Shown: piece by piece, positions 21,180-40,758 of the stretch
Numbering within the stretch: position 1 is the stretch's first letter
Layout: every line of letters starts with the position of its first letter
Notes under the pieces: generated by a model
What the model was told of the DNA's origin: nothing
The model's input: the letters and a program-made list of their open reading frames with translations, nothing else
Database searches by the model: none
Assembly (NCBI GenBank): GCA_016932165.1
Contig: JAFGDK010000022.1
Span: 1-64,000, forward strand
Length of the DNA stretch: 64,000 nt
Source of the DNA: Anaerolineales bacterium
GTDB lineage: Bacteria > Chloroflexota > Anaerolineae > Anaerolineales > UBA11579
Direction: 5' to 3'
Made by a program: the position numbers and the translations under genes

Positions 21180-22244
21180 TTATTTTTCCAATTTGAGCAG
21201 TTTTAGTAAACGCTTCCGTCCCTCCGTGATCTTTGCGGATTGCATCCGCCAGGTACCCACAATTCCGAATGGCAGATAAAGTACGATCAGGATGTAGATA
21301 GCCCCATTAATGAAACTGGCACTCTCGCCCAGGTATCTTCGTAATCCAAAATCTAACAATCTGTAAACTGCCGCACCCACCAGGGCGCCGTTTAAGGTGC
21401 CCACCCCCCCAATCAAAATGATTAACAATGCCGTCACTGTAAATCCCAAACCCGCGGTATTTGGGGATACAATTGGCTGATAAAGAGTATGAAGCGTCCC
21501 GGCTAATGCAGCTGTAACTGAGGAGAGAACCAACGCCACAATCTTAAAGTAAAAAGTATTGAACCCAAGCATCTTCGCTCGGTCCTCATTTTCTCGAATC
21601 GCCACACACACGCGGCCTGTGGGTGAATCTACAAACCGCTTGTATATAAAATAAACCACCAGAAGCAGGACGATTGCGACAAAATAAAAAGTCAACCGGT
21701 GGGTAGCGGGGTTAATAAATTCAGGCACAGGCACTGCCTGCAGGCCCACGTCTGCCCCCGTATAGTCGCCCACCTCACGAGACATAATCACAATATGGAA
21801 AACTGAACCCAATCCCAATGTCACCAGAGCAAACGTGATTCCTTTTACCCGTGGAAGAACTATCCCAAAAAGGAACGCGTTCACCACTGCAATCACCAAA
21901 ACCCAAACCAATGTCATTCCCAGGGACAGATCAAAACTCTTCAGCAGAATCCCAGAAAGATAAGCTCCTGCCGCAAAAAACATCGAGTGACCAAAAGAAA
22001 GCAGCCCGGTAATCCCAAAGATCAAATCATAACTGAGGGCATAAATCGCCAGAATGAAAATCTCTATTGCCAGTCCTTGCACAAATTTTGAAGTACCGCT
22101 CTCATTCTGCCATACCGCACCCAGGGAAGCACCCTCAAACAACCCGACAATGAATGGCAAAACCACCAGGGCCAGAAGGGAGAGTATCAAACCTCTGTTT
22201 TGAGAAACAAACGAATTAACAGTGGGAGATGTCTTTTCAGTCAC
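21180..22244 (-). CDS. livM: Branched-chain amino acid-type ABC permease
   Basis: This 354-residue membrane protein has about nine to ten helices. The family segments YDLIFGITGLLSFGHSMFF, LGFNTFYFKIVALVLSS and IGGVGTLNGALVGAA are present. It forms the importer channel with the LivH-like permease. Translation probably starts at GTG 22244, placed 7 bases after AAGGAG, which itself lies in the last codons of livH. The name follows family only; such systems also import aromatic acids, urea and short-chain amides. Confidence 0.93.
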   Translation of the reverse strand: MTEKTSPTVNSFVSQNRGLILSLLALVVLPFIVGLFEGASLGAVWQNESGTSKFVQGLAIEIFILAIYALSYDLIFGITGLLSFGHSMFFAAGAYLSGILLKSFDLSLGMTLVWVLVIAVVNAFLFGIVLPRVKGITFALVTLGLGSVFHIVIMSREVGDYTGADVGLQAVPVPEFINPATHRLTFYFVAIVLLLVVYFIYKRFVDSPTGRVCVAIRENEDRAKMLGFNTFYFKIVALVLSSVTAALAGTLHTLYQPIVSPNTAGLGFTVTALLIILIGGVGTLNGALVGAAVYRLLDFGLRRYLGESASFINGAIYILIVLYLPFGIVGTWRMQSAKITEGRKRLLKLLKLEK

Positions 22245-22247
22245 AGA

Positions 22248-23795
22248 TTACTCCTTCCTGCCCAGCAATCCATTTGGCATGAGCAATAATATGATTACCA
22301 TCAGCAGCACCGTGGAGGCCGGAACCAATGGCGGCGTTGGCTTGAATATAATCTCTGTAAATGGTATTGGGATCCCAATAGCACCATATTTAATAATGAA
22401 CTGCTGTAATAATCCAACCAGAATGGAACCCAATGCTGCTCCAGGATAGCTGGTCAGCCCTCCAATTGCCAAAGCAATCAGCGCGTTCAATAACAGGCTC
22501 TCCCCCATCACATTTGATAACCCCATCGATGGAGCTGCTAAAGCGCCTCCCAGGGCAGCCAGACCAACACCCAACGCAAATACCAAAGTGAATACCCGCC
22601 GCACGTTGATCCCCAGAGCCTCAACCATCTCGCCATCTTGCACACCTGCCCGGATGATCATCCCCAACTTGGATCGCTGCAAAAGCATCCAGACTGTGAT
22701 CAGCACCACCAGCCCCACAACGGGAATGAATATCTCGTTATACACTCGTATCCGGCCATCTAGTAATTCGATTGTCGAACAATGATACTGAACCAGATCG
22801 GCCAGCGTGGTTGCCGGGCACCCTTCTCCGGTACCAGAGAACATCGCCGGTTTGGGCATCACAAATTCTGGCCTCCCCCATATTGCCCGCACCACCTCTA
22901 TACCGATCGCGCTCAACCCGATCGTCAACATTAATTGGTATATTGGACGAACATATAACGGCCGGATCAATGTGGATTCCATCACACCACCCAGCAAAAT
23001 ACCGAAGGATACCGCTGACAATACAGCAAGAAAGAACAACCAATTGGAATTTATACCTGTAAGAAATGCTGTTAGCCCATCATTTAAAAACAATGCCGCC
23101 AACCCAACCAGTGCAACCATGAAAAATCCCAAATAACTTCGCCAACCAACTTTTAAATTCGCTTGAGTGCTTTTCTTGAAAAGGCTAAGGCTGAAACCTG
23201 CGATGAGACTACCTGCCATCAAACCGATTGCCGCCACGGCAGGTGAAATTTCTTCAAATGGCTCACCTTCTGGCAGCACCAATAAACCCTGGTCTGCCAT
23301 GAAAGAATACGTCACCGGGCTTTGAGCATAATTTCCCACATCCCATATCGTGATTGGAAAGCGTCTGAATACTAGAACAACAATCACTGCCGCCAGCATA
23401 AGACCCATCCAGGGCAATGCTTTTCTTAAAAACCCATCGATTCTTATCCCTTCACGCAGCCTGTCCCACAACCCTGAAAGCATGAACCCGCTGACCAGCA
23501 GCAAACCTGGCGCAAGCAAATCCACAAAAGTATCAGGACGCACATATACCGTCCAGGCGACGTAAGCGCCGATCATGAACATTGTGCCATGCGCCAGGTT
23601 CAGCACATCCAGCAAGCCAAAAATCAGAGAAAAACCTGAAGCCACCAGGAAAGTGACTGCCCCAACCGATAATCCTCGCAGCAAGGTGATTACCCAATCT
23701 TCTGTGTCCATCCCTCGAGCTGCCATCACAAAGAAGATTACCAGCACCAAAATGGTCAGCCACAAAACGAGATTCTTTCTAATCACATTTATCAT
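22248..23795 (-). CDS. livH: Branched-chain amino acid-type ABC permease, enlarged
   Basis: LivH permeases are usually about 290-310 residues; this one has 515. The N-terminal FSLIFGLLDVLNLAHGTMFM and C-terminal IRAGVQDGEMVEALGINVRR with GGLTSYPGAALGSILVG are the normal family core. Between them lie an extra block of about 150 residues (roughly 85-265), predicted to add several helices and an extracytoplasmic loop, and a second loop with two cysteines (GEGCPATTL, QYHCST). AAGGAG precedes the ATG. The extra loops could interact with the binding protein. Confidence 0.9.
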   Translation of the reverse strand: MINVIRKNLVLWLTILVLVIFFVMAARGMDTEDWVITLLRGLSVGAVTFLVASGFSLIFGLLDVLNLAHGTMFMIGAYVAWTVYVRPDTFVDLLAPGLLLVSGFMLSGLWDRLREGIRIDGFLRKALPWMGLMLAAVIVVLVFRRFPITIWDVGNYAQSPVTYSFMADQGLLVLPEGEPFEEISPAVAAIGLMAGSLIAGFSLSLFKKSTQANLKVGWRSYLGFFMVALVGLAALFLNDGLTAFLTGINSNWLFFLAVLSAVSFGILLGGVMESTLIRPLYVRPIYQLMLTIGLSAIGIEVVRAIWGRPEFVMPKPAMFSGTGEGCPATTLADLVQYHCSTIELLDGRIRVYNEIFIPVVGLVVLITVWMLLQRSKLGMIIRAGVQDGEMVEALGINVRRVFTLVFALGVGLAALGGALAAPSMGLSNVMGESLLLNALIALAIGGLTSYPGAALGSILVGLLQQFIIKYGAIGIPIPFTEIIFKPTPPLVPASTVLLMVIILLLMPNGLLGRKE

Positions 23796-23804
23796 CTCTG
23801 CTCC

Positions 23805-24509
23805 TTACGCCGCTCCCAGGTATCGATGGATCGTCTCGTGATCATTCACCAAATCTTTCATCATCCCGCTTTTCACCGATTTTCCTTCCTCAATGATCAC
23901 AAAATATTCCGCCAGCTGGCTTGCCACTAGAAAATTCTGTTCAACCAATACAACCGTGCTCTCAACAGAAAGCCGACTGATCACTTTCATCATCTGTTCG
24001 ATCAGCACCGGCGCCAGCCCCTCACTCGGCTCATCGATGAGCAGCAATTTGTTATCGGCCACCAAAGCTCTGGCGATTGCCAGCATTTGTTGTTGACCGC
24101 CAGACAGATTTGCCCCAGAGAGCGTGATCAAACGCTTCAAGTCTGGGAAGAGATCAAAGATCATATCTGACTTCCGGGTGTAGTCACCCTTCTCTCTCTC
24201 AGCAATCTTAAGATTCTCCTCGACACTCAGATCGCGAAAGATTGCCCGATGTTCAGGCACATACCCAATCCCCAACGCCGCGATGTCAAAAGACCGCATC
24301 CCGCTTAGGTCCCTCCCATCAAAGACCACTTTTCCCTGGCGTGGGGCCGTCAATCCTAAAATTGACTTCAAAGTGGTTGTCTTGCCAGCCCCGTTTCGCC
24401 CCAGCAATGCTGTGATGCTGCCCTGCGGCACTCCCAGACTGACCCCTTCTAATATGTGATATTGGCCAATAAATGTGTGGATTTCTTGTACATCCAGAAG
24501 AGTATCCAT
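23805..24509 (-). CDS. livF: ABC importer ATPase, LivF type
   Basis: ATG 24509 (MDTLLDVQEIHTF) is the likely start, preceded by GAGG and lying 7 bases after the livG stop; the longer frame to 24578 overlaps livG. The protein has 234 residues: Walker A GRNGAGKTT, Q-loop region, signature LSGGQQQMLAIARAL, Walker B LLLIDEPSEGLAP and switch His in the VVLVEQN-type form. LivF pairs with LivG to drive import. Confidence 0.93.
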   Translation of the reverse strand: MDTLLDVQEIHTFIGQYHILEGVSLGVPQGSITALLGRNGAGKTTTLKSILGLTAPRQGKVVFDGRDLSGMRSFDIAALGIGYVPEHRAIFRDLSVEENLKIAEREKGDYTRKSDMIFDLFPDLKRLITLSGANLSGGQQQMLAIARALVADNKLLLIDEPSEGLAPVLIEQMMKVISRLSVESTVVLVEQNFLVASQLAEYFVIIEEGKSVKSGMMKDLVNDHETIHRYLGAA

Positions 24510-24516
24510 GCAAACC

Positions 24517-25302
24517 TCACAGATCCAATTGGTACAAACCGCCCAGATAAGCAGTTTGCACGGTTTCATTTGCCGCAATTTCAGAGGGGCTCCCCTCCGC
24601 CAGCACAGCCCCTTGGTGCATCACCGTGATCACATCCGAAACACTCATCACCACATTCATATTGTGTTCTACCAGCATCACTGTTTTATCACCCGCCTGT
24701 TGTATTCCTTGAATCAGGGTAATCAGCTCGGGCACCTGCTCAGCCGCCATCCCCGCAGTCGGTTCATCCAACAGCAGAACTTCAGGATCAGGGGCAAGAA
24801 TCATCCCCAATTCTAATTTCCGTTGATCCCCATGGGGCAGCATTCTTGCAGGGGTTGTCGCCCTATCGACCAATCCCACCAGTTCAATCACTTCCCATGA
24901 TCGATTTGCATATGACTGGAACGAACCTGTTCGGCGGTAGAATTTAAAGTTATCTCTTCCCATTGCCTGACTTGCCAACCGGATATTTTCAAATACCGTG
25001 AGATTAGGAAAAATATTCGTAATCTGGAACGAGCGTCCAATCCCAAAATGGATCGTTCGGTGAACTGGTTGATTGGTGATATCCTTCCCTTTGAAGAACA
25101 CTTTTCCACTGGTCGGTTCAAGGTTTCCGCTTAGCAGATTGAAAAAAGTGGTTTTCCCGGCTCCATTCGGGCCGATGATCGCATGCAGAGTGTTTTTATG
25201 CACCTTGATGCTGACATCATTCACGGCCACCAGCCCCCCGAATACCTTTCGAAGATCTTCCGTTTCAAAAATGATTTCTGAGTCCATATCACCTTCCATC
25301 AT
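24517..25302 (-). CDS. livG: ABC importer ATPase, LivG type
   Basis: This protein of up to 261 residues has Walker A GPNGAGKTT, the LivG-specific Q-loop region GIGRSFQITNIFPNLTV, MLPHGDQRKLELGMILA in place of the usual LSxGxQ signature (typical of LivG), Walker B VLLLDEPTAGMA and switch MLVEHNMNVVM. The start may be ATG 25302 or ATG 25287; the second follows GGAAGG closely. It sits downstream of livK behind a strong hairpin. Confidence 0.93.
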   Translation of the reverse strand: MMEGDMDSEIIFETEDLRKVFGGLVAVNDVSIKVHKNTLHAIIGPNGAGKTTFFNLLSGNLEPTSGKVFFKGKDITNQPVHRTIHFGIGRSFQITNIFPNLTVFENIRLASQAMGRDNFKFYRRTGSFQSYANRSWEVIELVGLVDRATTPARMLPHGDQRKLELGMILAPDPEVLLLDEPTAGMAAEQVPELITLIQGIQQAGDKTVMLVEHNMNVVMSVSDVITVMHQGAVLAEGSPSEIAANETVQTAYLGGLYQLDL

Positions 25303-25422: not shown

Positions 25423-26847
25423 TTATTCGCCGCTAAGAGAACCGTAGGGCAGATCGCCGCAGCGGTCCGCCAGTTCTTCCGGCAGCAAGCACGGAGGCTC
25501 GGGGCGAGTGGTTTCTACGTACTCATAGTATGCAGCATCGGCAGCCGTAAGATCAATCAGCTTAAGGATGTACATATCCTGGATTGCCACATGGTCTTCC
25601 GGACGAATATAGACCGTACCTTTTGGTCCTTCAAAGGTCATACCTTCCATCACGCCGACCAGTGCGTCCCCAGATACATCACCGTTGGTTGCCTTGATCG
25701 CCTCTACCACCATGATGGCTGCATTCATGCCGTCCGCGTCAAACAGGTCTGGAGCCGTTCCGTATCGGGCCTTATCCTCTGCAAAGAGGAAGTCATTGGC
25801 AGCGTTGTTAGGTGCTGACCAATGGTAGAGGATACCATTCGTGCTGCCAACAGCATTGCCGTACCACAGGGGCATCAGCACATTGTCGATGAAGGTCGCG
25901 CCCAGGGCCATTTCCTCGTTCACGCCCAGGTCGGTGGCAGCCTGCATCAGCGGGACAAAGCCGCTGCCAGCCCAGGTCACGATATAAGCCTCTGCGCCGG
26001 AATCCAACACCTGCTCCATGTAAGGAGTAAAGTCGGTCGTATCTGCTGGTGCAAAGATATCATCCGCCACAAATGTGGCTCCCGCCAGCGAGCAGGCATC
26101 GCGGAACGCAGTCGCAGAACCCCAACCAAATGCATAATCCGGGGCGATCTGCACGAAACTCTCGTACTGTTTTGCCAGGTACAGACATTCGTTGATCGCA
26201 TCCTGGTAGTTGTTGCGGCTGGTGCGGAAGGTGTACTCATTGAAATTCACGCCTGTGATGTCATTCGCCGCGGCTGGCGCAACAATCAGAGGCACTTTGC
26301 TCTCAAAAGCAATCCCCTGCAAGGTCGCCGTAGCGCCAGAGGAAACCGTACCTACCAGAATATCAACGCCTTCAACATCGATCAGTTCGCGCGCCACGGT
26401 TGCCGTGTTTTCTGGGTTGCTTTGGTCATCCCGCACAAACACTTGGATTTCACATCCTTCCAACATGAAATTGTTTTCTTGGGCGGCGGCAAAATCAAAC
26501 ATCCCCCCCGCAGAGCCAGGGGCACCGGTTGCATATTCCATTCCCAGCATAAATGAGCGCAAGATATGTGCGCCATATATCGCTAGCGAGCCGGTCGCGT
26601 CTGTGATCAATCCTACTTTGATCGGCTCCTCACAGGTCAAGCCAGCCGCGGGTTCTTCAACTGGTGCTTCAGTTGGTGCTTCCGCAGGCTCTTCTGCTGG
26701 TTCTTCAACCGGTTCCTCTACTGGTTCATTCACCATGTCATCGTTGGTATCCACAGGTTCTTCGGTATTTCCACCACCGCACGCGGTCAGAACCAGCATC
26801 AGGATAACCATCACGAAAAACAATACTCTAAGGGACTTTTTCATCAA
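25423..26847 (-). CDS. livK: Substrate-binding lipoprotein of the Liv-type importer
   Basis: This 474-residue protein has a lipoprotein signal (MLVLTACGGG) and a low-complexity Glu/Pro/Val/Ala linker to about residue 68. The type I periplasmic binding fold starts with IKVGLITDATGSLAIYGAH. Features such as DDQSNPENTATVARELI, VGTVSSGATATLQGIA and IAPDYAFGWGSATAF are typical of the LivK/AmiC branch. It captures the substrate outside the membrane for LivHMGF. GATAGGAG precedes the ATG. It is the first gene of the liv unit and lies just downstream of the catabolic genes on the same strand. Confidence 0.93.
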   Translation of the reverse strand: MMKKSLRVLFFVMVILMLVLTACGGGNTEEPVDTNDDMVNEPVEEPVEEPAEEPAEAPTEAPVEEPAAGLTCEEPIKVGLITDATGSLAIYGAHILRSFMLGMEYATGAPGSAGGMFDFAAAQENNFMLEGCEIQVFVRDDQSNPENTATVARELIDVEGVDILVGTVSSGATATLQGIAFESKVPLIVAPAAANDITGVNFNEYTFRTSRNNYQDAINECLYLAKQYESFVQIAPDYAFGWGSATAFRDACSLAGATFVADDIFAPADTTDFTPYMEQVLDSGAEAYIVTWAGSGFVPLMQAATDLGVNEEMALGATFIDNVLMPLWYGNAVGSTNGILYHWSAPNNAANDFLFAEDKARYGTAPDLFDADGMNAAIMVVEAIKATNGDVSGDALVGVMEGMTFEGPKGTVYIRPEDHVAIQDMYILKLIDLTAADAAYYEYVETTRPEPPCLLPEELADRCGDLPYGSLSGE

Positions 26848-26920: not shown

Positions 26921-27724
26921 CTATCTTACAAAATCGAGAATATGCTTTGATGCAATTTCTGGAACTTCGATTGGGAAGAAATGTCCCGCATCAGGCAGGA
27001 TAACCGAGACACTATCTGGTATTTTTGATTGCAATAAGTCCGCATTCGCTGGGGGTACAACCTTATCATCTGCACCGAATAATATTAATGTCGGCGCAGC
27101 TACCTCTGCTAATCTTCCTTCAAAGCAAGCCTCCCCCGAAACCAGCCCCAACCCAATGGCCAGTTGTGACTGGTAGCCCTGAATATCAATGGGGTTCGCC
27201 ACCCGCCAATCTACCCATTCTTGAACCATCTCTGGGTTGCTTTCTGCCCATCCTGGCGCTGTACTGACTCGCAAGCCATTCTTAAACCTGGTTATAGGAT
27301 CTGAAGCTGTATCAGACAACACAGCCCAGGCCTCAGCAGTAACCGGTACATGGTTGGGGCCTCCAAAATTGGTTGAACATAGGATTAATTTATCCACCCG
27401 TTCAGGATAATCCAGGGCAATTGCCTGGGCAATAAACCCACCCATCGAGTGCCCGGCGATCACCGCCTTGTCAATCCCCAACACTTCCAACAAACCCACA
27501 ACATCAGCTGCCAGAAGCTGAGCAGAATAAGGACCTTCTGGCTTCTCAGACTCTCCAACTCCCCGATTATCTAAAGCAATCACCAAGCATTCATCTGCCA
27601 GCAAAGGCACCATCTTATGCCATTGCCACATCGGGTAACCCAATCCAGAGATTAACACCACAGGTGTGCCTTCCCCAGCAATTTGGTAATTCAGGATGAT
27701 TCCATTTACTTTAACCTTTGGCAT
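26921..27724 (-). CDS. Alpha/beta hydrolase
   Basis: This 267-residue hydrolase has the oxyanion strand VVLISGLGYPMWQW, the nucleophile elbow IAGHSMGGFIA (Ser about residue 93), an acid near LFGADDKVVPP and the catalytic His in LPDAGHFFPIE. The overall pattern resembles 3-oxoadipate enol-lactonase-type hydrolases. AGGAAAGGA precedes the ATG. It is the last gene of the catabolic run before livK. Likely substrate: an ester or lactone intermediate of the same pathway (inferred). Confidence 0.88.
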   Translation of the reverse strand: MPKVKVNGIILNYQIAGEGTPVVLISGLGYPMWQWHKMVPLLADECLVIALDNRGVGESEKPEGPYSAQLLAADVVGLLEVLGIDKAVIAGHSMGGFIAQAIALDYPERVDKLILCSTNFGGPNHVPVTAEAWAVLSDTASDPITRFKNGLRVSTAPGWAESNPEMVQEWVDWRVANPIDIQGYQSQLAIGLGLVSGEACFEGRLAEVAAPTLILFGADDKVVPPANADLLQSKIPDSVSVILPDAGHFFPIEVPEIASKHILDFVR

Positions 27725-27764: not shown

Positions 27765-30185
27765 TTAATCGGAGAAATCCAATGCACCAATTTCAGACAC
27801 CCATCTTCCATTCGCGGCTCTTTGCAGCGAGAGTGTCATCAACCCGTGATGATCTGTCTTGCTGTAACTGATCTGAGGCAGGACCCCACCCGTCCATCTC
27901 TCCAAACTCTCCAAGGCTTCAATAAATCTACTCCGGGAAGGGTTTGGGCCAGCGCGCCGCAAACCTTCCACAACTACCTGGGCAGCGGCATATCCAATCC
28001 GGTTATGGGTGCTTGGCAGCGTTCCGGGATATTTCCGTTCTAACAATTTCTTGAAGAGTCTTTCACCCCGATGGCTTCTCGGCCCGCTTGGATACGCCGC
28101 AGTTCTCACACCTTCGCTTGCTTCCCAACCAGACAACTGGAGAAGTTCCGTGCCTGAGATCACATAACTACCGAGCCAATTCGGTTTGAAACTAATCTTC
28201 AAAGCGCTTTCCAGTAGATCAGCAGCTGGTTTCACATAGGTGAAAAGCATCACCAGGTCTGGATCTGCATGCGCCAACTTTGCCGCCCATTCCTCGCTGT
28301 TATAATCTCCATCACTGTGGGTGATCTGCACCACCAGTTCAATGCCTTCCTTTTTCAGGCTGGTAATAAATGATCTGGCTCCTTCCTGACCGTAATGATC
28401 ATCCACTGAAACCACCGCGGCTTTTTTCGCCCCTAAAAAGTCAACAGCATACTTTGCCAGGAGTCTTCCCTCAACTTCGTACGATGGCTGCAAGGCAAAA
28501 TATGTTGGCTTAACAGGATTAGACCACACCGAAATACCGCTGTGTGGTGAGATCACAGGCACCTCATTTTCAAGAAAATAATCCATAACCGCCAGATTGG
28601 GGGACGTACCCAGGGGGCTAACAATGGCAAACACCTGGTCCTCTTCCACTAGTTTTTTGCCTGCATTAATCGCTCTCTTAGGGTCAAAACCATGGTCTTC
28701 GACGATTAATTCGATTTTTTTTCCGTGAATACCCCCCCAATAATTGATATGTTCATAATAAGTTGAAAATCCACGATAAGCGTCTATCCCAATATCTGCC
28801 TGCTGACCTGAAAGATCGCATAGCGTCCCTAATTTTATCGTGCCCAGATCAGTCCTTTCAGAAAATCCTGGCACTGCCAGATTAGGAACAATTTTCAAGC
28901 GTTCTGCCTCTTCCCTGATCCAATCGCGGAAATCTGGATGTGCGATCTGGATGAGAGCTTCCATTCGCTGTTTGACGTTAAGCCCTCGCAGCCTGGCAAT
29001 CCCAAATTCTGTCACGATCGTATCCACATCCTGACCCGCGATCGTCACCTCTGCGCCAGGGCTGAGCATAGGAACAATCGTCGATATTGTTCCGCCCTTA
29101 GCGGTAGAATGCAGGGCGATAATCCCACGCCCCCCTTCCGCCATCTGCGCCCCCCGGTGTGTATCCAGCTGCCCGCCGGTTCCGCTGTAATGCCTTGGTC
29201 CAATACTCTGGGAACAGACCTGCCCGTTGATATCCACCTGCAGGGCGGTATTTACACTCACCATCTTATAATTTTTGGCAATCGTGTAAGGATCATTTGT
29301 CACCTTGCCCTGCTGGAACTCAACGCCCAAATTATTATCGAGGAAATCATACAATTTTTGTGAGCCCAGTGCAAATGCTCCAACCATCTTTCCTGGCCAG
29401 AGCGTTTTCTTCCGGCCAGTTACCACGCCCGCCTCATATAGGTCCACCATCCCATCAGTGAACATCTCAGTGTGAATTCCCAAATCTCGCCGCTCAAGTA
29501 AAAACGCAGTGATCGCGTTAGGAATCCCGCCAATTCCCAATTGCAATGTTGCCCCATCATCAATCAGTTCAGCAATATGCCCCCCAATCTCCCTCTCCCA
29601 CTCGCTCGGCGGAGCAGAGGGCAGCTCAAACAACGGCACGTGGTTTTCAACCAGATAATCCACTTCAGAGATATGGATATGAGTATCGCCCAACGTCCAA
29701 GGTAGGTTTTCATTGATCTCCAGGATCACCAGGTCCGCCGCCTCAATTAACATTTTTTCAATTACCAGGGAAGTGGAGAGCGACAGATACCCCCTATTGT
29801 CTGGTGGCGTAGCTGTCCCCCAAAACACATCCAATTGATTACCAGCAGCCTCCAGTCGTACCTTTGCTGCCGCATGAAGGTTATTGGGAATATACGAAAT
29901 CCGCCCCTGTGGATGAACTGCCCGGTCGGGTGCCCCGTAGAACCAGTTTTCCACGAAGAAATGCCCAGCCATCTCCGGTTTGATTACAAAATCATATTCC
30001 CGCAGTGGCAGACAGACCCATATCTTGACATCATAAAGCCGTCCCCTGTGCTGTCCCAGTTCAGTTAACAACCCAACTGGTTCAGCAGCAGCCATACTGG
30101 TCCCAATTACATGATGTGATTGGGTCATCCCAACGGCATCCGGAATCGAGATCAACTTATCGTGGAAAATTTTTTTAATACTCAT
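27765..30185 (-). CDS. CoA-transferase fused to a periplasmic-binding-protein domain
   Basis: This 806-residue protein has no signal peptide. Residues about 1-435 are an acetyl-CoA hydrolase / 4-hydroxybutyrate CoA-transferase: NLPWTLGDTHIHISEVD, GATLQLGIGGIPNAI, HTEMFTDGMVDL with the probable catalytic Glu near 237, YSGTGGQLDTHRGA and FGIARLRGLNVKQR. Residues about 445-800 are a type I periplasmic binding fold of the LivK family, starting IKLGTLCDLSGQQADIG and continuing with VEDHGFDPKRAINAGKKL and VSVDDHYGQEGA. There is no stop or frameshift at the junction. A ligand-binding domain that is normally exported is here part of a cytosolic enzyme, which suggests allosteric sensing of a pathway compound (inferred). 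It lies four genes' breadth from a real livK. Confidence 0.92.
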   Translation of the reverse strand: MSIKKIFHDKLISIPDAVGMTQSHHVIGTSMAAAEPVGLLTELGQHRGRLYDVKIWVCLPLREYDFVIKPEMAGHFFVENWFYGAPDRAVHPQGRISYIPNNLHAAAKVRLEAAGNQLDVFWGTATPPDNRGYLSLSTSLVIEKMLIEAADLVILEINENLPWTLGDTHIHISEVDYLVENHVPLFELPSAPPSEWEREIGGHIAELIDDGATLQLGIGGIPNAITAFLLERRDLGIHTEMFTDGMVDLYEAGVVTGRKKTLWPGKMVGAFALGSQKLYDFLDNNLGVEFQQGKVTNDPYTIAKNYKMVSVNTALQVDINGQVCSQSIGPRHYSGTGGQLDTHRGAQMAEGGRGIIALHSTAKGGTISTIVPMLSPGAEVTIAGQDVDTIVTEFGIARLRGLNVKQRMEALIQIAHPDFRDWIREEAERLKIVPNLAVPGFSERTDLGTIKLGTLCDLSGQQADIGIDAYRGFSTYYEHINYWGGIHGKKIELIVEDHGFDPKRAINAGKKLVEEDQVFAIVSPLGTSPNLAVMDYFLENEVPVISPHSGISVWSNPVKPTYFALQPSYEVEGRLLAKYAVDFLGAKKAAVVSVDDHYGQEGARSFITSLKKEGIELVVQITHSDGDYNSEEWAAKLAHADPDLVMLFTYVKPAADLLESALKISFKPNWLGSYVISGTELLQLSGWEASEGVRTAAYPSGPRSHRGERLFKKLLERKYPGTLPSTHNRIGYAAAQVVVEGLRRAGPNPSRSRFIEALESLERWTGGVLPQISYSKTDHHGLMTLSLQRAANGRWVSEIGALDFSD

Positions 30186-30218: not shown

Positions 30219-31034
30219 TTACAACCTTTGTTCATTCGCGCTTTGTTTTGCAAGGAACCCTAATACTATCGAATTAAATTCCTCTGGCCTCTCCCAGCAG
30301 CTGGCATGGCCAGCCCCATCAAGGATGTGAAGCTCAGCATGTGGAATCCCGCTGAATAGTATCTGGGAATACTTCAATCCTTTCAGAATATCCTTGCCGC
30401 CTACAATAATACAGGTAGGAGCCGATATTTCACCCAGCCTTGAAGTGAAATCTACTTCCAGGAAAGCCTCGCACAGCCGGAGGATGGCTTGAAAGTCCAA
30501 CAAAGCATACCGCTCCTTGGATGCCTCCAGGAGAGCAGTGTTCGTCTCAATGAACTCAGCGCTGAAATTCCACGGGACCGTCGCGTTGAAAAACCCCAAA
30601 GGATCACCAAGGCGCAATGCATCCATCCAGGCCTGGATTACGATCCGTAATTCAGGCCGTACCTCACAGACCGTATCAACTAAAATCAGGCTGCGGGTTT
30701 TTTCAGGAAAATCCAGCGCAAATGCCTGTGCAACCTCACCACCATACGATATTCCAGCAATATGGGCGGTCTGAATGCCCAGCCCTGCCAGCAATCCAGA
30801 CAGATCCTCTGCGTGGACCGCCATGGAATAACCCTTTTCTGGGTGGTCAGATTGCCCCTGTCCCCGGCAGTCATATTGCAAAACGCGGTAACCCTTTGAT
30901 AATGTCTTGGTTTGATACACCCAACTGGTAGCCGCATTCATGATGATCCCGTTATTCAAAACCAGCACAGGTGCGGCTTCCGGCCCGTGAAGTTCGTAAT
31001 ACAGATTAATTCCATTAACCTTGATTTTGGCCAT
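30219..31034 (-). CDS. Alpha/beta hydrolase
   Basis: This 271-residue protein resembles the hydrolase at 26921 (same N-terminal pattern KVNGINLYYELHG). The oxyanion region is VLVLNNGIIMNAATSW. The nucleophile elbow is IAGISYGGEVA, the usual His before Ser being Ile. The acid lies near IVGGKDILKG and the catalytic His in LDGAGHASCWE. It lies between the DUF35 gene (8 bases) and the CoA-transferase fusion (33 bases) in one operon. Specific substrate unknown. Confidence 0.87.
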   Translation of the reverse strand: MAKIKVNGINLYYELHGPEAAPVLVLNNGIIMNAATSWVYQTKTLSKGYRVLQYDCRGQGQSDHPEKGYSMAVHAEDLSGLLAGLGIQTAHIAGISYGGEVAQAFALDFPEKTRSLILVDTVCEVRPELRIVIQAWMDALRLGDPLGFFNATVPWNFSAEFIETNTALLEASKERYALLDFQAILRLCEAFLEVDFTSRLGEISAPTCIIVGGKDILKGLKYSQILFSGIPHAELHILDGAGHASCWERPEEFNSIVLGFLAKQSANEQRL

Positions 31035-31042
31035 TTAAGTCT

Positions 31043-31459
31043 CTATTTCACATCAAAAGCCAGGAAAGTCTTCTTTTCCTCTCCTTCACCTCGCTCCAGG
31101 AATACCGCTTCCACTGGTGCGCCGATCTTTATCGTCTCTGGCAAAGCAGTGTTCACTCCCAAAATTTGGGCGCTGATCGAGAGTCCGTTTTCTAGTTTCA
31201 CAATCCCTGAGCAATGCGGGTTCTCTCTTCCATACCCTGCTTCAATCATCGCGGTTGAAGCAATATAAACGATCGTAAATGCTTCCAATGTGCCGTTGGT
31301 CCCTGCCTCTACCCATTCCAAATTATCGCTGTAACAATTGGTGCACATCGGCTTGGGCGGCAAATACATCCTGCCGCATTCCTCACACCTGGATGCCATC
31401 AACTTGTGAGACGCCAGTTTTTCATCAAACCCGGCCTTGTTAAATCTCTGCTCTGTCAT
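31043..31459 (-). CDS. DUF35 OB-fold / zinc-ribbon thiolase partner
   Basis: This 138-residue protein has a rubredoxin-like zinc ribbon CEECGRMYLPPKPMCTNC (four Cys) followed by an OB-fold (GTLEAFTIVYIAST...HCSGIVKLENGLSIS). DUF35 proteins bind SCP2-type thiolases and shuttle acyl-CoA; in archaea they join thiolase to HMG-CoA synthase. It starts three bases after the thiolase stop, which supports such a pair. Confidence 0.9.
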   Translation of the reverse strand: MTEQRFNKAGFDEKLASHKLMASRCEECGRMYLPPKPMCTNCYSDNLEWVEAGTNGTLEAFTIVYIASTAMIEAGYGRENPHCSGIVKLENGLSISAQILGVNTALPETIKIGAPVEAVFLERGEGEEKKTFLAFDVK

Positions 31460-31462
31460 TGC

Positions 31463-32728
31463 CTACCTCCTCCCAAAGATGTGTACTGTACAGGTTCCGC
31501 CAGTACCGCCGACATTATGAGTTAACCCAAACTCCAACTCACCTGCAACCTGGCGATCCCCTGCCAACCCCCTCATCTGTTTCCAGATTTCGATAACTTG
31601 CCCGGCGCCAGAAGCCCCGACTGGATGCCCTTTTGATTTCAACCCCCCAGAGGTATTGATCGGCTTTTCTCCGGTTCGCCCGGTGACCCCCGTTTCAGCT
31701 GCTCTGTAGCCCTCGCCTTCCGGGAAGAAACCCAGATCTTCGATGGCGATCACTTCAGCAATCGTAAAACAGTCATGCACCTCAGCAACCTGGATATCAG
31801 CCGGGGTCACCCCGGACATCAGGTATGCCTGCCTTGCAGCTTCTCGCGCAGCCCGCAATCCAGTTAGATTTTCACGCTCATGCAAAGCGACATCACTGGC
31901 CTGTCCGGTTCCAAGAATATATAAAGGATCTTCGCTAAATTTATTCGCCAAATCTTCGCTGACAAGCAACAATGCCGCAGCCCCATCCGAGATCGGAGAG
32001 CAGTCAAACAGGCGCATAGGCCAGGCAATGATCGGATTCGCCCGGGCATCTTGCAAGAAGGCAATTTCATTTTCCCAGACCGGGATTGGCAGACCTCTCG
32101 CCTCTGACTTGGCAATTTTATCATCCATCACCTGACGGATGGTTTTCCCAAACTGGGCTTTATCATTCAAAGCGCCATTTTCATGGTTCTTGATGCCCAC
32201 TTTCATAAAGGATTCAGGGGTTGCCCCAAACTTGTGCATGTAGGAGGTCGCCATTGAGGCATAGAAACCAGGGAATGTAAAACCGGCAGGGATCTCATAG
32301 AGCATATCGCTTGCAGTTGCCAACGTATCTGTCACTTCGGCAGTCGGCAGGTCAGTCATCTTTTCAATTCCACCCACCAGGACAATATCTGCAACTCCAG
32401 AGGCAATTGCGAGGATCCCCTGCCGGAGGGCCACACCACTGCTGGCACAAGCATCTTCCACTCTAACAGCAGGTTTTGGTGCCAAACCCACCCACTCTGC
32501 CATGATCGGGGCAGTATGTCCTTGGCCTTCAAACAAATCACTTGAAAAGTTGCCAATATACAATGCATCAACCTCAGCAGGATTAAATCCCTTATCAACA
32601 GAATCCCGCATCTCCAAAAAAGCTTCCACAAACAAATCTCTAGTGGATTTTCCTGGAAAAGCGCCGAATTTACTCATTCCAGCTCCCACTACAGCAACGC
32701 CTCGAGAAAGGGGGCGAAATTTAGCCAT
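31463..32728 (-). CDS. Thiolase family protein (SCP2-type)
   Basis: The start at ATG 32728 (MAKFRPLSRG) has a textbook AAGGAG seven bases ahead; the ORF extends further to 32749 but lacks an RBS. The protein has 421 residues. VAVVGAGMSKFG opens it; VEDACASSGVALRQG holds the acylated Cys; EVHDCFTIAEV and INTSGGLKSKGHPVGASG hold the His motifs; HNVGGTGGTCTVHIF closes it in the manner of archaeal/SCP2 thiolases. It probably cleaves or forms a 3-oxoacyl-CoA. The DUF35 partner follows at once. Confidence 0.92.
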   Translation of the reverse strand: MAKFRPLSRGVAVVGAGMSKFGAFPGKSTRDLFVEAFLEMRDSVDKGFNPAEVDALYIGNFSSDLFEGQGHTAPIMAEWVGLAPKPAVRVEDACASSGVALRQGILAIASGVADIVLVGGIEKMTDLPTAEVTDTLATASDMLYEIPAGFTFPGFYASMATSYMHKFGATPESFMKVGIKNHENGALNDKAQFGKTIRQVMDDKIAKSEARGLPIPVWENEIAFLQDARANPIIAWPMRLFDCSPISDGAAALLLVSEDLANKFSEDPLYILGTGQASDVALHERENLTGLRAAREAARQAYLMSGVTPADIQVAEVHDCFTIAEVIAIEDLGFFPEGEGYRAAETGVTGRTGEKPINTSGGLKSKGHPVGASGAGQVIEIWKQMRGLAGDRQVAGELEFGLTHNVGGTGGTCTVHIFGRR

Positions 32729-32793
32729 CTTGAATCTCCTTATTTTCATTGGTGAATTCTGGCCAAATCACCAGGCCAGAATCGCTAAATCTG

Positions 32794-33855
32794 TTAGGCC
32801 AACACCTTCTTAAAAATATCCATGAACTCCTGCGGTTTTTCCACGAACGGAGTGTGGGCTGTATCTGCCATCACAAACTCTTCAAAATCACCGCCTTTAG
32901 CTTTATAAGATTCCAGCAAATATCGTGTCTGGCTCACCATTGGCTGAGGCGGATATACATCCAATCCCGGCCACCCTGGAACCAGCCCCATCTGACCCAA
33001 AGTGCCAAAATCAAACAGTGAAGTATCCGAGACAATCTGATCAGCCTCTCCCCTGATCCAGAGAACAAAAGGCTTTGGTTCTGCTGCCAGGAACTTTTCA
33101 ACGCTGTCTCCCACATATTTTGGAGAGATCGCATTGATCGGACCGAACCTGCCTGGGGCAACATTTGGCCAGTTCCCTGAAGGAACCATATCACCCGGAT
33201 ATCTATCCGCACCGATTTTCTCTGTTAAGAGCGATGACAGCAAATCTTCCTCGCGTTCAGGCACAAACGGCGGCTTCCAGTAGAAACTGTTCATTACCAC
33301 CCGCGGGGATGCCTGCGGGTTGTCGCTCGAACGGTCTCCTTCACCAATCAGGCGCGGAAAATCCGGATTGACAATCCCACCCCCAGAACCGGCAAAATCT
33401 TCATAGCAGGGCTGTCCATCTACGCCCTTGCTGCCGCCAAACCCGAATATCGATCCTGGATTCACCACGGTGGCACTCAGAACACGCTCTGGATGGGCGG
33501 CAACCATTCCAAAGACAAGAGTGCCGCCCATCGAATGACCGATCAAATGAAATTTTTGAACCGCAAGAGTATCAAGCAGGTCAGCAAGGTCATCAATCCA
33601 GTCACCCATCCCGCGTTCAGCATCAATCACTTTGTCCTCAGTATCACCATACCCACGCAGGTCAGGTGCTAATCCCCGGTAACCCTCCGGGAGCATCAAC
33701 ATGATCTCTTCCCAAAAAGTAGCTGAGGATGCATTCCCATGCAAAAAAAGCACAGGGGCTCCATCCGCAGGGCCGCTAAACAGCACGTGGGTTTTTATTC
33801 GGGAGGTCTCTACCATTTTAGAGTCAATCCCATCCAAAGTTGGCACACTAGACAT
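32794..33855 (-). CDS. Alpha/beta hydrolase, long form
   Basis: The start at ATG 33855 has AAAGGAG ahead of it, which lies in the end of the ligase gene; a GTG at 33861 overlapping the ligase stop is the alternative. It has 353 residues: the oxyanion segment is LFLHGNASSATFWEE, the nucleophile elbow LIGHSMGGTLVFG, the acid region WIRGEADQIVSD and the catalytic His TAHTPFVEKP. An extra lid of about 90 residues lies between the elbow and the acid. Third hydrolase of the locus. Confidence 0.88.
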   Translation of the reverse strand: MSSVPTLDGIDSKMVETSRIKTHVLFSGPADGAPVLFLHGNASSATFWEEIMLMLPEGYRGLAPDLRGYGDTEDKVIDAERGMGDWIDDLADLLDTLAVQKFHLIGHSMGGTLVFGMVAAHPERVLSATVVNPGSIFGFGGSKGVDGQPCYEDFAGSGGGIVNPDFPRLIGEGDRSSDNPQASPRVVMNSFYWKPPFVPEREEDLLSSLLTEKIGADRYPGDMVPSGNWPNVAPGRFGPINAISPKYVGDSVEKFLAAEPKPFVLWIRGEADQIVSDTSLFDFGTLGQMGLVPGWPGLDVYPPQPMVSQTRYLLESYKAKGGDFEEFVMADTAHTPFVEKPQEFMDIFKKVLA

Positions 33856-33857
33856 TT

Positions 33858-35411
33858 TCACTCCTTTCCAATCAATTGGTTTCGCAACTCGCGCTTTAAA
33901 ATTTTACCCATCCCAGAAAGTGGCAGCGCATCCATGACTGCCACACCTTTCGGAACCTTATAACTCGCCAGGTGTTCCTTCATGTACGCGATTAATTCTT
34001 CCCCGCTTACCTTGGCATCCGGCTTGAGCACAACACAGGCGTGCCCCACCTCTCCCCAGCGTTCATCTGGCAGACCAATGACTGCACACATTTGAACCGC
34101 AGGATGCCGATAGAGCACGTTTTCAATTTCTACAGGATAAACATTCTCACCCCCCGAGATGAACATATCCTTCTTGCGGTCCCGCACATAGAAGTACCAC
34201 TCGTTATCGTATTCGACAATATCGCCAGTGTGGAACCAGCCATCTTCATCAAACACCTCTGCGAATGCTTCCGGATTTTGCCAGTACCCCGAACATCCGC
34301 TGGGGCCTTTCAGAAGCAACTCGCCAGCCATATTGGGGCCTAGCGGCTTATTGTCCTCATCAACTACCCTTACATCCACAAAAAAGTTCGGCCGGCCGAT
34401 GCTGCCTGCTTTGCGCACTGCATCCTCAGGCGGCAAGGCGAACAAACCGGGACCGTATTCTGTCATCCCAAAACCCTGTTTGAACCGCACATTTTTTTCG
34501 GTAGTGAATTTTTCGACCAGGGGAACGGGGAGCGGAGCTCCCCCACTAGTGCAGAATCTCAAGCTGCTGAGGTCTGAACTCTCCCAATTTTCTGCCTGAG
34601 TCAAGAACTGATACATCGTCGGCACGCCGGCAAATACGGTTACCTGCTCGCGTTCGATTAAATCCAAAACTTGCTCCGCATCAAACTGCCGTGTCAGGAT
34701 CGTGGTATTCCCAAACAATATTTGTGATGAGATATAGGTAAAGAGACCTCCTGTGTGGAACAGCGGGAACACGCACAAGTAAACATCGCCGTGCGTAATA
34801 TCATGTATCACTGTATTCAACACATTCCAACATATCTGCCTGTGGCTTATCTGCGCGCCCTTCGGTAAGCCGGTTGTCCCACCAGTGAACAGAAGACAGG
34901 CAATATCCTCCCTCTCCAAAGTTTCACAGGTCACCGGCGAGGTTGGAGACCCTTCAAGAACCTCATCATAAAGCAGACTGCCTTGAATCCCAGTTCCCTC
35001 TATATGAAGGTAGTAACTTATCTTAGCTGGGGTATCGACTGTGGCTAAAAATATCTCATTAACCTCACTGAGAAAATCATCTGAGTAGATCAGCACGTTT
35101 GGCGAAGTCTGTTCAATTAATGAGAGATTTTCTCTCCAGTGCAGCCGCCAATTTAGCGCGGTATGGATCGTACCCAATTTAGCACAGGCGTAAAAACAGT
35201 CCAAATGCTCGATCCCATCTCTGGCAAGGATTGCCACCCGGTCGCCCTTTCGGACGCCCGCCACATCCTGAAGCCAGTTTGCCAGCCGGTTCACTCGCCG
35301 ATTCCACTGTCTGTATGTCAGACGAATTTCAGGGACCTTCCCAGCATCAATGATTGCTAAATTGTCTGGAGAGTAGATTTCCCGCCGGCCCAGATAATCA
35401 CCTATATACAT
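33858..35411 (-). CDS. Acyl-CoA synthetase (AMP-forming)
   Basis: This 517-residue ANL-superfamily enzyme has the phosphate loop LLFTGGTTGLPKGAQ, the aromatic motif QGFGMTEYGPGLFALP, GELLLKGPSGCSGYW, the hinge WFHTGDIVEYDNEWYFYVRDRKKDMFISGGENV (hinge Asp/Arg in two pieces) and the C-terminal lysine of MGKILKRELR. It activates a carboxylic acid to its CoA thioester via an acyl-adenylate. The position between KAS III and the thiolase suggests that it charges the imported substrate or a cleavage product. Confidence 0.93.
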   Translation of the reverse strand: MYIGDYLGRREIYSPDNLAIIDAGKVPEIRLTYRQWNRRVNRLANWLQDVAGVRKGDRVAILARDGIEHLDCFYACAKLGTIHTALNWRLHWRENLSLIEQTSPNVLIYSDDFLSEVNEIFLATVDTPAKISYYLHIEGTGIQGSLLYDEVLEGSPTSPVTCETLEREDIACLLFTGGTTGLPKGAQISHRQICWNVLNTVIHDITHGDVYLCVFPLFHTGGLFTYISSQILFGNTTILTRQFDAEQVLDLIEREQVTVFAGVPTMYQFLTQAENWESSDLSSLRFCTSGGAPLPVPLVEKFTTEKNVRFKQGFGMTEYGPGLFALPPEDAVRKAGSIGRPNFFVDVRVVDEDNKPLGPNMAGELLLKGPSGCSGYWQNPEAFAEVFDEDGWFHTGDIVEYDNEWYFYVRDRKKDMFISGGENVYPVEIENVLYRHPAVQMCAVIGLPDERWGEVGHACVVLKPDAKVSGEELIAYMKEHLASYKVPKGVAVMDALPLSGMGKILKRELRNQLIGKE

Positions 35412-35445
35412 CTACCAACCTCCGATCTACATTCAAGCGGAATTA

Positions 35446-36444
35446 TCAACCCGTCCACTTCCAAACCGAGGAAGCCATACTGATCCCACCACCACTGGCA
35501 CAGAACACGATCACATCCCCTGGTTTAGGTCCCCTTCCATGGGTAATTGCATCGTCAAGCGCCATGATTACACATGGCGAGCCAGTGTACCCCCATTTAT
35601 CCATCACCCAATACGTTTTTTCAATTGGCTGCTTTAGCAATTCCATCATATATTCAATTGTGCGCAAATTCAGCTGCGTCCACAGGAACAAATCTACATC
35701 ATCGTAACTTAAATTCACCTTGTCCAATGCGCCTTTTACAAGCAAAGGCCAGTATTCTGTATTGAATGTTTTGGGGAACTTGCGAACAAATTCCACTTTC
35801 GGGGGGCCAAATTTTTCAATATTCTCTGGCGTTGCCGGGCGGTTTACACCGCCAGTGTAGATACCGAGTGCATCGTGAAACTCCCCCTTGGCCAAAAGAT
35901 TGCTCGCCAGAAATCCGGGTTCTTCCCCGATACCCAATAGAGCAGCCCCAGCTCCATCAGCGAACAAGTTGGCGGTTTTCTTATCCTGGAAATCCAGGTA
36001 CCGGCTCATCCCATAACCGCCCGTCACCAGCACATATTCTGCCGATGGTTCGGTCGCCAAATACCGGGCCCCCAGATCCAAAGCAGTCACCCATCCCGCG
36101 CACGCACTGTTTACATCGTAACATCCTGCATTTACCACCCCCAGTTTGTGCTGTACCACAATCGAAGTGCTGGGGGATAAATAATCCGGTGTATCAGTCG
36201 AGACGATCACCAACCCAATCTGTTCAGGGGAAACCCCGGCTTTCTCCATTGCCCGTTTGCCGGCCTCAACAATCAGATCAGAGGTGGTCTGGCCGTCCAC
36301 CATCCAGCGCCTTTCCAAAATGCCTACATTTGCCTCCAGCCATTCGCTGGTGCTGACCCCCATGATTTCATCGATCTCAGCATTTGTAACTACACGCTCT
36401 GGCACATAACTACCTGTTGAAATAATCTGTGCAACCCTTGCCAT
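35446..36444 (-). CDS. KAS III-like protein lacking the catalytic His and Asn
   Basis: The start at ATG 36444 (MARVAQIISTGSYVPERVV) is preceded by GGGAGAG; 332 residues. It follows FabH over its length: GILERRW, STDTPDYLSPST and the nucleophile VNSACAGW. The usual PHQANLR reads FLWTQLNLR, so the His is Thr, and the HGNTSAAS region reads KWGYTGSPC, so the Asn is Tyr. The pair that drives decarboxylative condensation is therefore absent while the acyl-accepting Cys remains. It may be an acyl-transferase or a thioester-cleaving enzyme rather than a fatty-acid initiator. It follows the SDR gene by 16 bases. Confidence 0.88.
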   Translation of the reverse strand: MARVAQIISTGSYVPERVVTNAEIDEIMGVSTSEWLEANVGILERRWMVDGQTTSDLIVEAGKRAMEKAGVSPEQIGLVIVSTDTPDYLSPSTSIVVQHKLGVVNAGCYDVNSACAGWVTALDLGARYLATEPSAEYVLVTGGYGMSRYLDFQDKKTANLFADGAGAALLGIGEEPGFLASNLLAKGEFHDALGIYTGGVNRPATPENIEKFGPPKVEFVRKFPKTFNTEYWPLLVKGALDKVNLSYDDVDLFLWTQLNLRTIEYMMELLKQPIEKTYWVMDKWGYTGSPCVIMALDDAITHGRGPKPGDVIVFCASGGGISMASSVWKWTG

Positions 36445-36460
36445 CAGATTCTCTCCCAGA

Positions 36461-37219
36461 TCAGGTGCCAACCACAATTGCGCCGTCTACACGCAAAGTG
36501 ACACCCGAGATATAGCTGGCCTCGTCTGAAGCCAGGAACAGGTAAGCGTTAGCAATATCAATCGGTTCACCTAATCTGCCCAGCGGGGTTTTGGCTTTCA
36601 TGCCATCGAGAATTTTTTCCGGCATTTGCTTCACCATTTCGGTCAGGGTGAATCCAGGCGCAACCGCATTCACTCTAATATTGTGTCGCCCCAATTCTCG
36701 CGCCCACACTTTGGTCATCCCAATCACACCTGCCTTGGTGGCAACATAATTCGTCTGCCCAAAATTACCATCCAATCCCACAATCGAGGTAGCATTCAGG
36801 ATCACCCCTCCGCCCTGATTGATCATAAACGGAGCCACTGCCTGAGCGCAGTTGAAGGTGCCTTTCAGATTCACATCAATCACCAGATCCCAATCTTCCT
36901 CAGACATTTGCTTCACAAGCTCGCCATCCTTGACCTTGACAAACAAACCATCTCGCAGCACACCAGCGTTATTAATCAACACATCCACCCGGCCATAGTT
37001 TTTAATCACATCATCAACCCACGCCTGCACATCCTGGCGGTCTGCCACATTAACTTTGTAGAAGTTCCCCCCGATTTCTTCAGCAACCTGCTCCCCAGCC
37101 TCAATTGACAAGTCGCAGATCGCCACCTTAGCACCTTCTTCAGCAAAACGCTGCGCGGTTGCTTTACCGATGCCTGCTGCGCCGCCGGTCACCAGGCACA
37201 CTTTATCCTTCATTCTCAT
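36461..37219 (-). CDS. Short-chain dehydrogenase (FabG-like)
   Basis: This 252-residue protein has the NAD(P) site TGGAAGIGKATA, NNAGVLRDG and the catalytic Ser (NATSIVG) with YVATK. Asp in AICDLS after the second strand favours NAD(H). The C-terminus SGVTLRVDGAIV is typical. AAGGAG lies six bases before ATG 37219 within the end of the small upstream gene. It probably oxidises or reduces a 3-hydroxy/3-oxoacyl-CoA in the catabolic locus. Confidence 0.93.
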   Translation of the reverse strand: MRMKDKVCLVTGGAAGIGKATAQRFAEEGAKVAICDLSIEAGEQVAEEIGGNFYKVNVADRQDVQAWVDDVIKNYGRVDVLINNAGVLRDGLFVKVKDGELVKQMSEEDWDLVIDVNLKGTFNCAQAVAPFMINQGGGVILNATSIVGLDGNFGQTNYVATKAGVIGMTKVWARELGRHNIRVNAVAPGFTLTEMVKQMPEKILDGMKAKTPLGRLGEPIDIANAYLFLASDEASYISGVTLRVDGAIVVGT

Positions 37220-40500: not shown

Positions 40501-40758
40501 TGTCGCATAGCAAAGGCGGCGCAGAAAAACAACCGGATCCTGATCCCCTTCTGAGAGGTTGTACCAAATTGTATTGGGCAGATCATCAACCATTATCGCC
40601 AGGGCTGTGCTTTTCCCATATCCCGCTCCAGCCTGCACCAGGGTCAACCGATGATCAAAAACCCCTTCCAGGGCTTTTTTCACCCTATCGCGCATTAAAA
40701 GATAACGGTTCAGCTTTGGTGGTACGATTTTAGTTTCCAGGATGATCGGTTGAGACAT
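37525..40758 (-). CDS. STAND ATPase transcriptional activator with BTAD domain
   Basis: This 1077-residue protein starts with ILETKIVPPKLNRYLLMRDRV, as in MalT-like regulators, and has a P-loop VQAGAGYGKST near residue 45 and a Walker B-type ALILDNLIGLAP region. A long TPR-like superhelix (about 350-800) follows. The C-terminus has a winged-helix part (LRVKTLGNFELWRG, LLLTFRNSPLDRDQICEYLWPG) and a bacterial transcriptional activation domain (LGLYNGEYLPDARFKVWS, LRSELGIDPSPETQTLFKQL). Such proteins bind an inducer and ATP, then activate nearby genes. It lies directly upstream of the catabolic run on the same strand. A -10 box ends six bases before its ATG, so its mRNA may be leaderless. Confidence 0.92.
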   Translation of the reverse strand: MSQPIILETKIVPPKLNRYLLMRDRVKKALEGVFDHRLTLVQAGAGYGKSTALAIMVDDLPNTIWYNLSEGDQDPVVFLRRLCYATENAFPSITGLPTTLLDAWDSARGPLPSREVVAQYLHVVGAGIGAPAVLIFDDLHQIAETSEIALILDNLIGLAPENLHFVGATRVPIQLPNLYRWRSQGQVLEIDQSMLMFSEEEIKELFEIHYHYELTPDEIEDLYAATEGWVISLQLIGRALFSGSVKTIKEALSRRNSPLESLFEILAHDVLEDQSAEMKDFMRKTSVLRSLTTDVCNWLLGIENSNEYLKILQNNDLFISQLGGGDLRYHPLFQQFLNQLLLPAEKENLHLRAAEYYRSQDRINSAIYHYLRAEDFFNAADLLDSYSGELQALGHLDTLANYLDSLSPDVLGQFPNLIYYLGDLARLHSRFQDALAWYQQAEALFRERGNPVGVSRSLRGQARIYLDTVNPARAEELLQQALRLSDGTTDREAKVRLYQLLAENKLNLGNVEEAKKLRDQAEILRREGPADSELWVRVLLRTGKLEEALQQLEKLAQEEASEPVYTPRAHRETQLLLSLIYALQGEKDKALLSAEAGIVRGRMLSSPFVKAVGYMRKGSALMMGKADNESYQQAEDLFQRAIQISKELSVARLRVEAFWGLTRVNGYQGKLDEALSVAEIGCGIANQAGDEWIASHIRMSLGTSYLLEGKLDQALEWLDQSVRGFDECSDSFGLSAARMWQCLAWFKKQAFELLIPTLEDVFSVCRKNQYDYLLYRRTMVGLPDERIIAPLLIWARENRISSPYAEKLLAMMGLPGIESHPGYQLRVKTLGNFELWRGNSCVAHSDWKRENTCRLFQLLLTFRNSPLDRDQICEYLWPGIKEKAAQGNFKVSLNTLFRVLEPDRIAGSESAFVLREGSVYGLRPGCDLSLDVDTFEAEIKRAEKLTGNDIGEALEAYRNALGLYNGEYLPDARFKVWSAVEREHLAVTYLQSADRFCELSLKLHRFVDVIDECQKILGQDTCWERAYRHLMVAYDGLGDHGQLARTYHRCVEVLRSELGIDPSPETQTLFKQLTKAG

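Follow-up and report, generated by a model that had tools for sequence, protein, structure and literature searches.

A family I CoA-transferase fused to a signal-less type I periplasmic-binding-protein domain in Chloroflexota and Gammaproteobacteria

Background

Type I periplasmic-binding-protein (PBP) domains are known as export-dependent parts of transporters, as ectodomains of receptors and as cytosolic sensors in gene regulation, the latter including AmiC and the LacI-type proteins. AmiC, which senses amides for the ami operon of Pseudomonas aeruginosa, frees its partner AmiR upon acetamide binding (PMC5259723). Family I CoA-transferases use a ping-pong mechanism via a catalytic glutamate, and in RipA the active-site pocket reaches toward the C-terminal helix (PMC3180442). 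The family members with solved structures (AbfT 3gk7, 3eh7, 2oas and RipA) are 434-476 aa long, and none of them contains a PBP domain. A literature search for CoA-transferase/PBP fusions or for other cytosolic PBP-enzyme fusions retrieved no paper, which is not proof of their absence.

Here we describe a gene that combines these two protein families in a 64,000-nucleotide stretch of an Anaerolineales genome from Chloroflexota (hereafter, the window). Its features are listed in Table 1.

Table 1. Features of the fusion gene and of the surrounding operon in the window, in the order of transcription
Feature	Position	Strand	Remarks
MalT-like TPR/BTAD transcriptional activator	37525..40758	minus	upstream of operon, conserved with operon
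SDR (FabG-like) dehydrogenase	36461..37219	minus	
KAS III-like condensing enzyme	35446..36477	minus	
AMP-forming acyl-CoA ligase	33858..35411	minus	
Alpha/beta hydrolase 1	32794..33861	minus	
SCP-x-type thiolase	31463..32749	minus	
Zinc-ribbon/OB-fold (ChsH2/DUF35-type) partner of thiolase	31043..31459	minus	
Alpha/beta hydrolase 2	30219..31034	minus	33 bases upstream of fusion gene
CoA-transferase/PBP fusion gene	27765..30185	minus	806 aa plus stop; single frame kept in 7 other species
Family I (4-hydroxybutyrate-type) CoA-transferase domain, residues 1-434	28884..30185	minus	Pfam PF02550/PF13336; 9vag, 3eh7, 3gk7; AF2 pLDDT mostly >90
Codon of Glu240, catalytic glutamate position	29466..29468	minus	corresponds to Glu238 in the AbfT of C. 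aminobutyricum (3gk7); no variation among 40 aligned sequences
Interdomain linker, residues 435-448	28842..28883	minus	pLDDT <50 at 435-447; relatives have ~10 residues more
Cytosolic type I PBP domain, residues 449-806, without signal peptide	27768..28841	minus	Pfam PF13458; AF2 pLDDT 91.8, pTM 0.89; 3td9 Z 41.4, AmiC 1qo0 Z 35.7
Alpha/beta hydrolase 3	26921..27724	minus	40 bases downstream of fusion gene
LivK, exported lipoprotein, different PBP branch	25423..26847	minus	
LivG, LivF, LivH, LivM	21180..25302	minus	

Domain content of the fusion protein

The earlier note on this DNA had described an uninterrupted frame joining a 4-hydroxybutyrate-type CoA-transferase to a type I PBP fold without a signal peptide, and this description was confirmed. 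The frame starts with ATG and comprises 806 codons with zero internal stops. Three Pfam domains were detected in it, namely AcetylCoA_hydro (residues 80-182), AcetylCoA_hyd_C (274-427, E 1.9e-61) and Peripla_BP_6 (449-791, E 1.1e-57); each match lies far above the Pfam cut-off, and both halves of the protein are complete. By inspection, neither an export signal nor a lipobox precedes either domain, and the same holds for the split forms described below, whereas nearly all other free PBP/LivK ORFs of the fetched loci carry one or the other. Export of the fusion protein was rejected for this lack of a signal sequence.

When CoA-transferases and LivK proteins were aligned together with MAFFT, the PBP rows were misplaced, so separate alignments served for modelling the full-length protein and the PBP domain. 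For the full-length protein, AF2 shows two formed domains and a disordered linker, with an unreliable relative orientation (pTM 0.57), while the PBP domain on its own was predicted with confidence as a complete fold. Counted between the IVP motif and the first PBP strand, the linker varies in length from about 17 to 31 residues.

The CoA-transferase half is best read as an active enzyme on the strength of its conserved residues. Its relatives in the PDB are the 4-hydroxybutyrate CoA-transferases (9vag, E 2e-105; 3eh7; 3gk7), and it has both Pfam domains and the catalytic glutamate of the family I 4-hydroxybutyrate/butyryl-CoA group. The glycine-rich motifs are invariant in the 40-sequence alignment, and the SGTGGQ motif is present. 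These domains, the glutamate and SGTGGQ are common to the fusion and to the structurally solved family members, which end approximately where the fusion linker begins; the attachment point of the PBP lies near the region corresponding to the C-terminal helix of RipA. The best NCBIfam equivalog, TIGR03948 (butyryl-CoA:acetate CoA-transferase), reached 281 bits where 675 are required, and naming the protein accordingly was rejected. With a score this far below the cut-off, "4-hydroxybutyrate-type" is used here as a label of sequence family with no substrate claim. The genes for an SDR, a thiolase and an acyl-CoA ligase nearby make it conceivable that the enzyme acts in a pathway of hydroxy or keto acids.

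Operon context

The fusion gene belongs to a co-directional run that starts with the activator, continues through the SDR, KAS III-like enzyme, ligase, hydrolase, thiolase with its OB-fold partner, second hydrolase, fusion and third hydrolase, and ends with LivK-G-F-H-M. A full Liv importer with its own LivK is thus encoded at the locus (26847-21180), as reported previously. A largely similar operon (activator, SDR, KAS III, thiolase/OB, hydrolases and Liv) with an ordinary unfused CoA-transferase was found in many Chloroflexota, so the fusion is an addition to a widespread cassette.

Several side observations were made in the window. The KAS III-like enzyme, the SCP-x thiolase and the zinc-ribbon/OB-fold protein stand together on the minus strand (31043-36477), and we take this set to resemble multi-component acyl-transfer complexes such as the archaeal thiolase/HMG-CoA synthase and PhlACB. 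LivH (22248-23795, minus strand) is unusually long at 515 aa, and its Pfam match falls into two separated stretches, which suggests an insertion. A lipoprotein-like ORF at 1314-3083 on the minus strand contains four rhodanese-like repeats, as judged by eye.

Fused, split and lost forms in related genomes

Genome samples covered 396 genomes of the class, 400 of the phylum and 321 of one proteobacterial class, and relatives were taken from the best 80 of 125 related loci; the search for fusions included no class-wide sample of Bacillota. Five other Chloroflexota species carry the fusion as a single open frame (66-70% identity), as do two gammaproteobacterial MAGs, G997 (825 codons) and G880 (829 codons), with 55-56% identity over 801-802 residues. 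The gammaproteobacterial origin of the latter two contigs rests on MAG binning; the Pfam domains were confirmed in the gammaproteobacterial fusion of locus L155. Counting that of the window, a minimum of eight species, belonging to two phyla, have the fusion. We regard it as a genuine, recurrent domain fusion, for which a regulatory function is plausible.

An assembly or sequencing artefact joining two genes might be suspected in a fragmented draft genome of 128 contigs. The same stop-free junction in seven other species with independent assemblies refutes such a join and makes this explanation vanishingly improbable. The earlier note had suggested looking for the same domain order in relatives and had raised two objections, a read-level join and absence of the fusion from all relatives; the order was found in these seven species, and both objections fall with them.

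The distribution of the fusion is patchy, as a search of 23 further genomes from the family to which the window belongs gave no fusion. In two further Chloroflexota species (G425 and G437/G774) the PBP is a separate gene whose product is 56-58% identical to that of the window. Here the CoA-transferase ends with TGA, followed by an SD-like AGGAAGGGAG and, about 33 bases on, by the ATG of a PBP without signal peptide. The split genes of G425 are located on one contig (L079), where the CoA-transferase copy carries frame disruptions, while those of G437 sit on two contigs (L016 and L124) whose ends share sequence. Comparison of the two stand-alone PBPs gave dN of 0.013 and dS of 0.095, so that the stand-alone cytosolic PBP is under purifying selection. 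Loss of the domain is visible in G237 (family f43), where a copy of the CoA-transferase terminates after VPGFTAE, right within the linker, and the CoA-transferases of family f35 (L007) also lack a PBP. These losses show that the PBP domain is dispensable in the relatives concerned, and the majority of such operons in Chloroflexota do without the domain.

Phylogeny and origin

All ten cytosolic PBPs, eight fused and two split, form one clade with 100/100 support that was recovered in 100% of bootstrap trees. Its sister group consists of exported lipoproteins from the Chloroflexota family f15 (44% identity). In the CoA-transferase tree, the Chloroflexota fusion halves group together, with the gammaproteobacterial ones and the unfused f35 proteins nearby (91/88). 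The simplest story is one gain of the domain, a transfer to Gammaproteobacteria and subsequent losses. However, three changes are required on the CoA-transferase tree, and the branch of the split pair is deeper, so that an ancestral pair of neighboring genes may instead have been the origin.

The PBP domain diverges approximately twice as fast as the CoA-transferase domain, with end branches of 0.45 and 0.22-0.23, respectively. Together with the patchy distribution and the losses, this rate would suit a passenger, i.e. a LivK gene product that lost its signal sequence, became fused to or settled behind the CoA-transferase and now binds nothing useful. We consider such a scenario hardly probable, as the PBP has been retained across the depth separating two phyla, its stand-alone form bears the mark of purifying selection, the confidently predicted fold is intact, and pocket residues are invariant in the eight Chloroflexota sequences.

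Ligand pocket of the PBP domain

The fused domain shares its fold and family with the LivK/LivJ-type binding proteins of ABC importers. It has the Peripla_BP_6 domain and the type I PBP fold expected of a Liv/HAAT importer component, but it lacks the export signal and is joined to, or encoded behind, a cytosolic enzyme. The pocket is also distinct, with His548, Tyr650 and His727 in the Chloroflexota cytosolic PBPs in place of Ala, Ile and Tyr in the nearest exported relatives.

For comparison of ligand positions, the fused PBPs were aligned to Escherichia coli LivJ, using 13 ligand positions of this protein, among which Glu226 is the amino-group ligand. In the eight Chloroflexota cytosolic PBPs, nine of the 13 positions are invariant, compared with 142 of 361 (39%) overall; the hypergeometric P of 0.026 is a modest signal given the few and related sequences. 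At the amino-acid site of LivJ (Ser79, Thr102 and Glu226), the fusion has Thr527, Gly550 and Tyr674. A LivJ-type alpha-amino-acid sensor was rejected because the equivalents of Glu226 and Thr102 are lost, and the missing amino-group glutamate argues against an alpha-amino acid as ligand. The gammaproteobacterial fusions differ from the Chloroflexota proteins at positions 548, 674 and 727, having Ile, Asn and Trp instead of His, Tyr and His, so that two of the three distinctive residues (His548 and His727) are not kept. The putative ligand is probably an organic acid rather than an amino acid, and it probably changed between lineages.

Comparison with the LivK of the same operon gave 16% identity, a different branch of the PBP tree and none of the 13 ligand-position residues in common. 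The low identity and separate branch led us to reject the fused domain as a copy of the operon's own LivK. Liv-type permeases are encoded elsewhere in the genomes of the gammaproteobacterial fusions, and no Liv genes occur within the 15-20 kb examined beside the fusions themselves. The pocket mismatch and the absence of adjacent Liv genes imply that the domain need not read a compound imported next door. The proposal in the earlier note that it senses the compound taken up by the adjacent Liv system is not supported by these observations; what stands of that reading is the signal-less PBP itself, which is real, recurs among species and is attached to a CoA-transferase whose catalytic motifs are intact.

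Possible functions of the fused domain

A cytosolic sensing or regulatory role would be the most economical explanation for the PBP domain. According to this model, the PBP would bind a small metabolite inside the cell, and the open/closed motion of its two lobes would modulate the attached CoA-transferase. That the domain binds a ligand and thereby alters CoA-transferase activity is an inference, as are the class of this ligand and the direction in which control would act. We see about even chances that the protein is an active CoA-transferase modulated through lobe motion by a cytosolic PBP that binds a small metabolite, likely an organic acid and not an alpha-amino acid. The regulatory reading draws on the fusion in eight species, the split cytosolic form, the single clade, the kept Glu240, the conserved pocket and the confident fold. 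The variable, low-confidence linker and the unfixed domain orientation speak against tight coupling, and the losses in close relatives and the pocket residues not kept in the gammaproteobacterial fusions also count against regulation.

Alternatively, the PBP may capture the substrate, binding the carboxylic acid acceptor tightly and handing it to the CoA-transferase site, which would raise the local concentration with no regulation involved. The fixed pairing of both activities, either fused or as neighboring cytosolic genes, and the flexible tether fit such a role, and a pocket without the amino-group glutamate is compatible with a plain acid. We nevertheless find substrate capture unlikely, since slow release from a tight cleft is no obvious help to a turnover enzyme and relatives manage without the PBP.

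AmiC provides a precedent for intracellular sensing. Like the fused domain, it is an intracellular protein of the type I PBP fold without an export signal, and it is among the structure matches of the PBP model (1qnl at rank 50; 1qo0 at 16% identity). However, AmiC acts on the antiterminator AmiR as a protein of its own, whereas the fused PBP is a covalent part of a metabolic enzyme. The domain is best read as analogous to AmiC in location and fold, not by membership; the precedent makes an intracellular PBP sensor feasible and does not turn the fusion into an AmiC. Among the annotations of the operon genes examined, the MalT/BTAD activator is present and no AmiR-like antiterminator was found. 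By analogy with the release of AmiR, the partner of the PBP could be another cytosolic protein, such as this activator, with the enzyme serving as carrier (a trigger enzyme). Conservation of the activator gene alongside the operon favors this reading, but the gene also accompanies many unfused operons, and neither such an activator nor such an operon surrounds the gammaproteobacterial fusions; signalling of this kind therefore seems improbable.

Returning to control of the enzyme by its own PBP, we tentatively suggest that the fusions may represent a new class of allosterically gated CoA-transferases, for which the case falls somewhat short of balanced. An importer-type PBP would have been drawn into the cytosol as an effector module that arose once, exists in fused or split form, passed between phyla and changed its ligand specificity. 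If true, attachment of a PBP to an enzyme of central metabolism would be an unusual way for allostery to arise, and it would offer a ready-made scaffold for enzymes switched by a ligand. With split forms, fused forms and domain-loss strains at hand, the role of the PBP can be tested directly.

Other PBP arrangements

Three further PBP-containing ORFs were noted in the fetched loci. A signal-less stand-alone PBP of another subfamily (L010:9685-10914, plus strand) lies two genes behind an unfused CoA-transferase, with a small ORF between, and may be a further cytosolic PBP, independent of the first, in operons of this kind. Tandem LivK domains occur in one 858-codon frame (L032:11231-13804, plus strand), which could be a genuine double PBP or result from assembly. 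In genome G774, a Ser/Thr protein kinase-like protein (L163:1030-3474, minus strand) has a membrane span and, at its C terminus, a Peripla_BP_6 domain, and is a putative kinase receptor.
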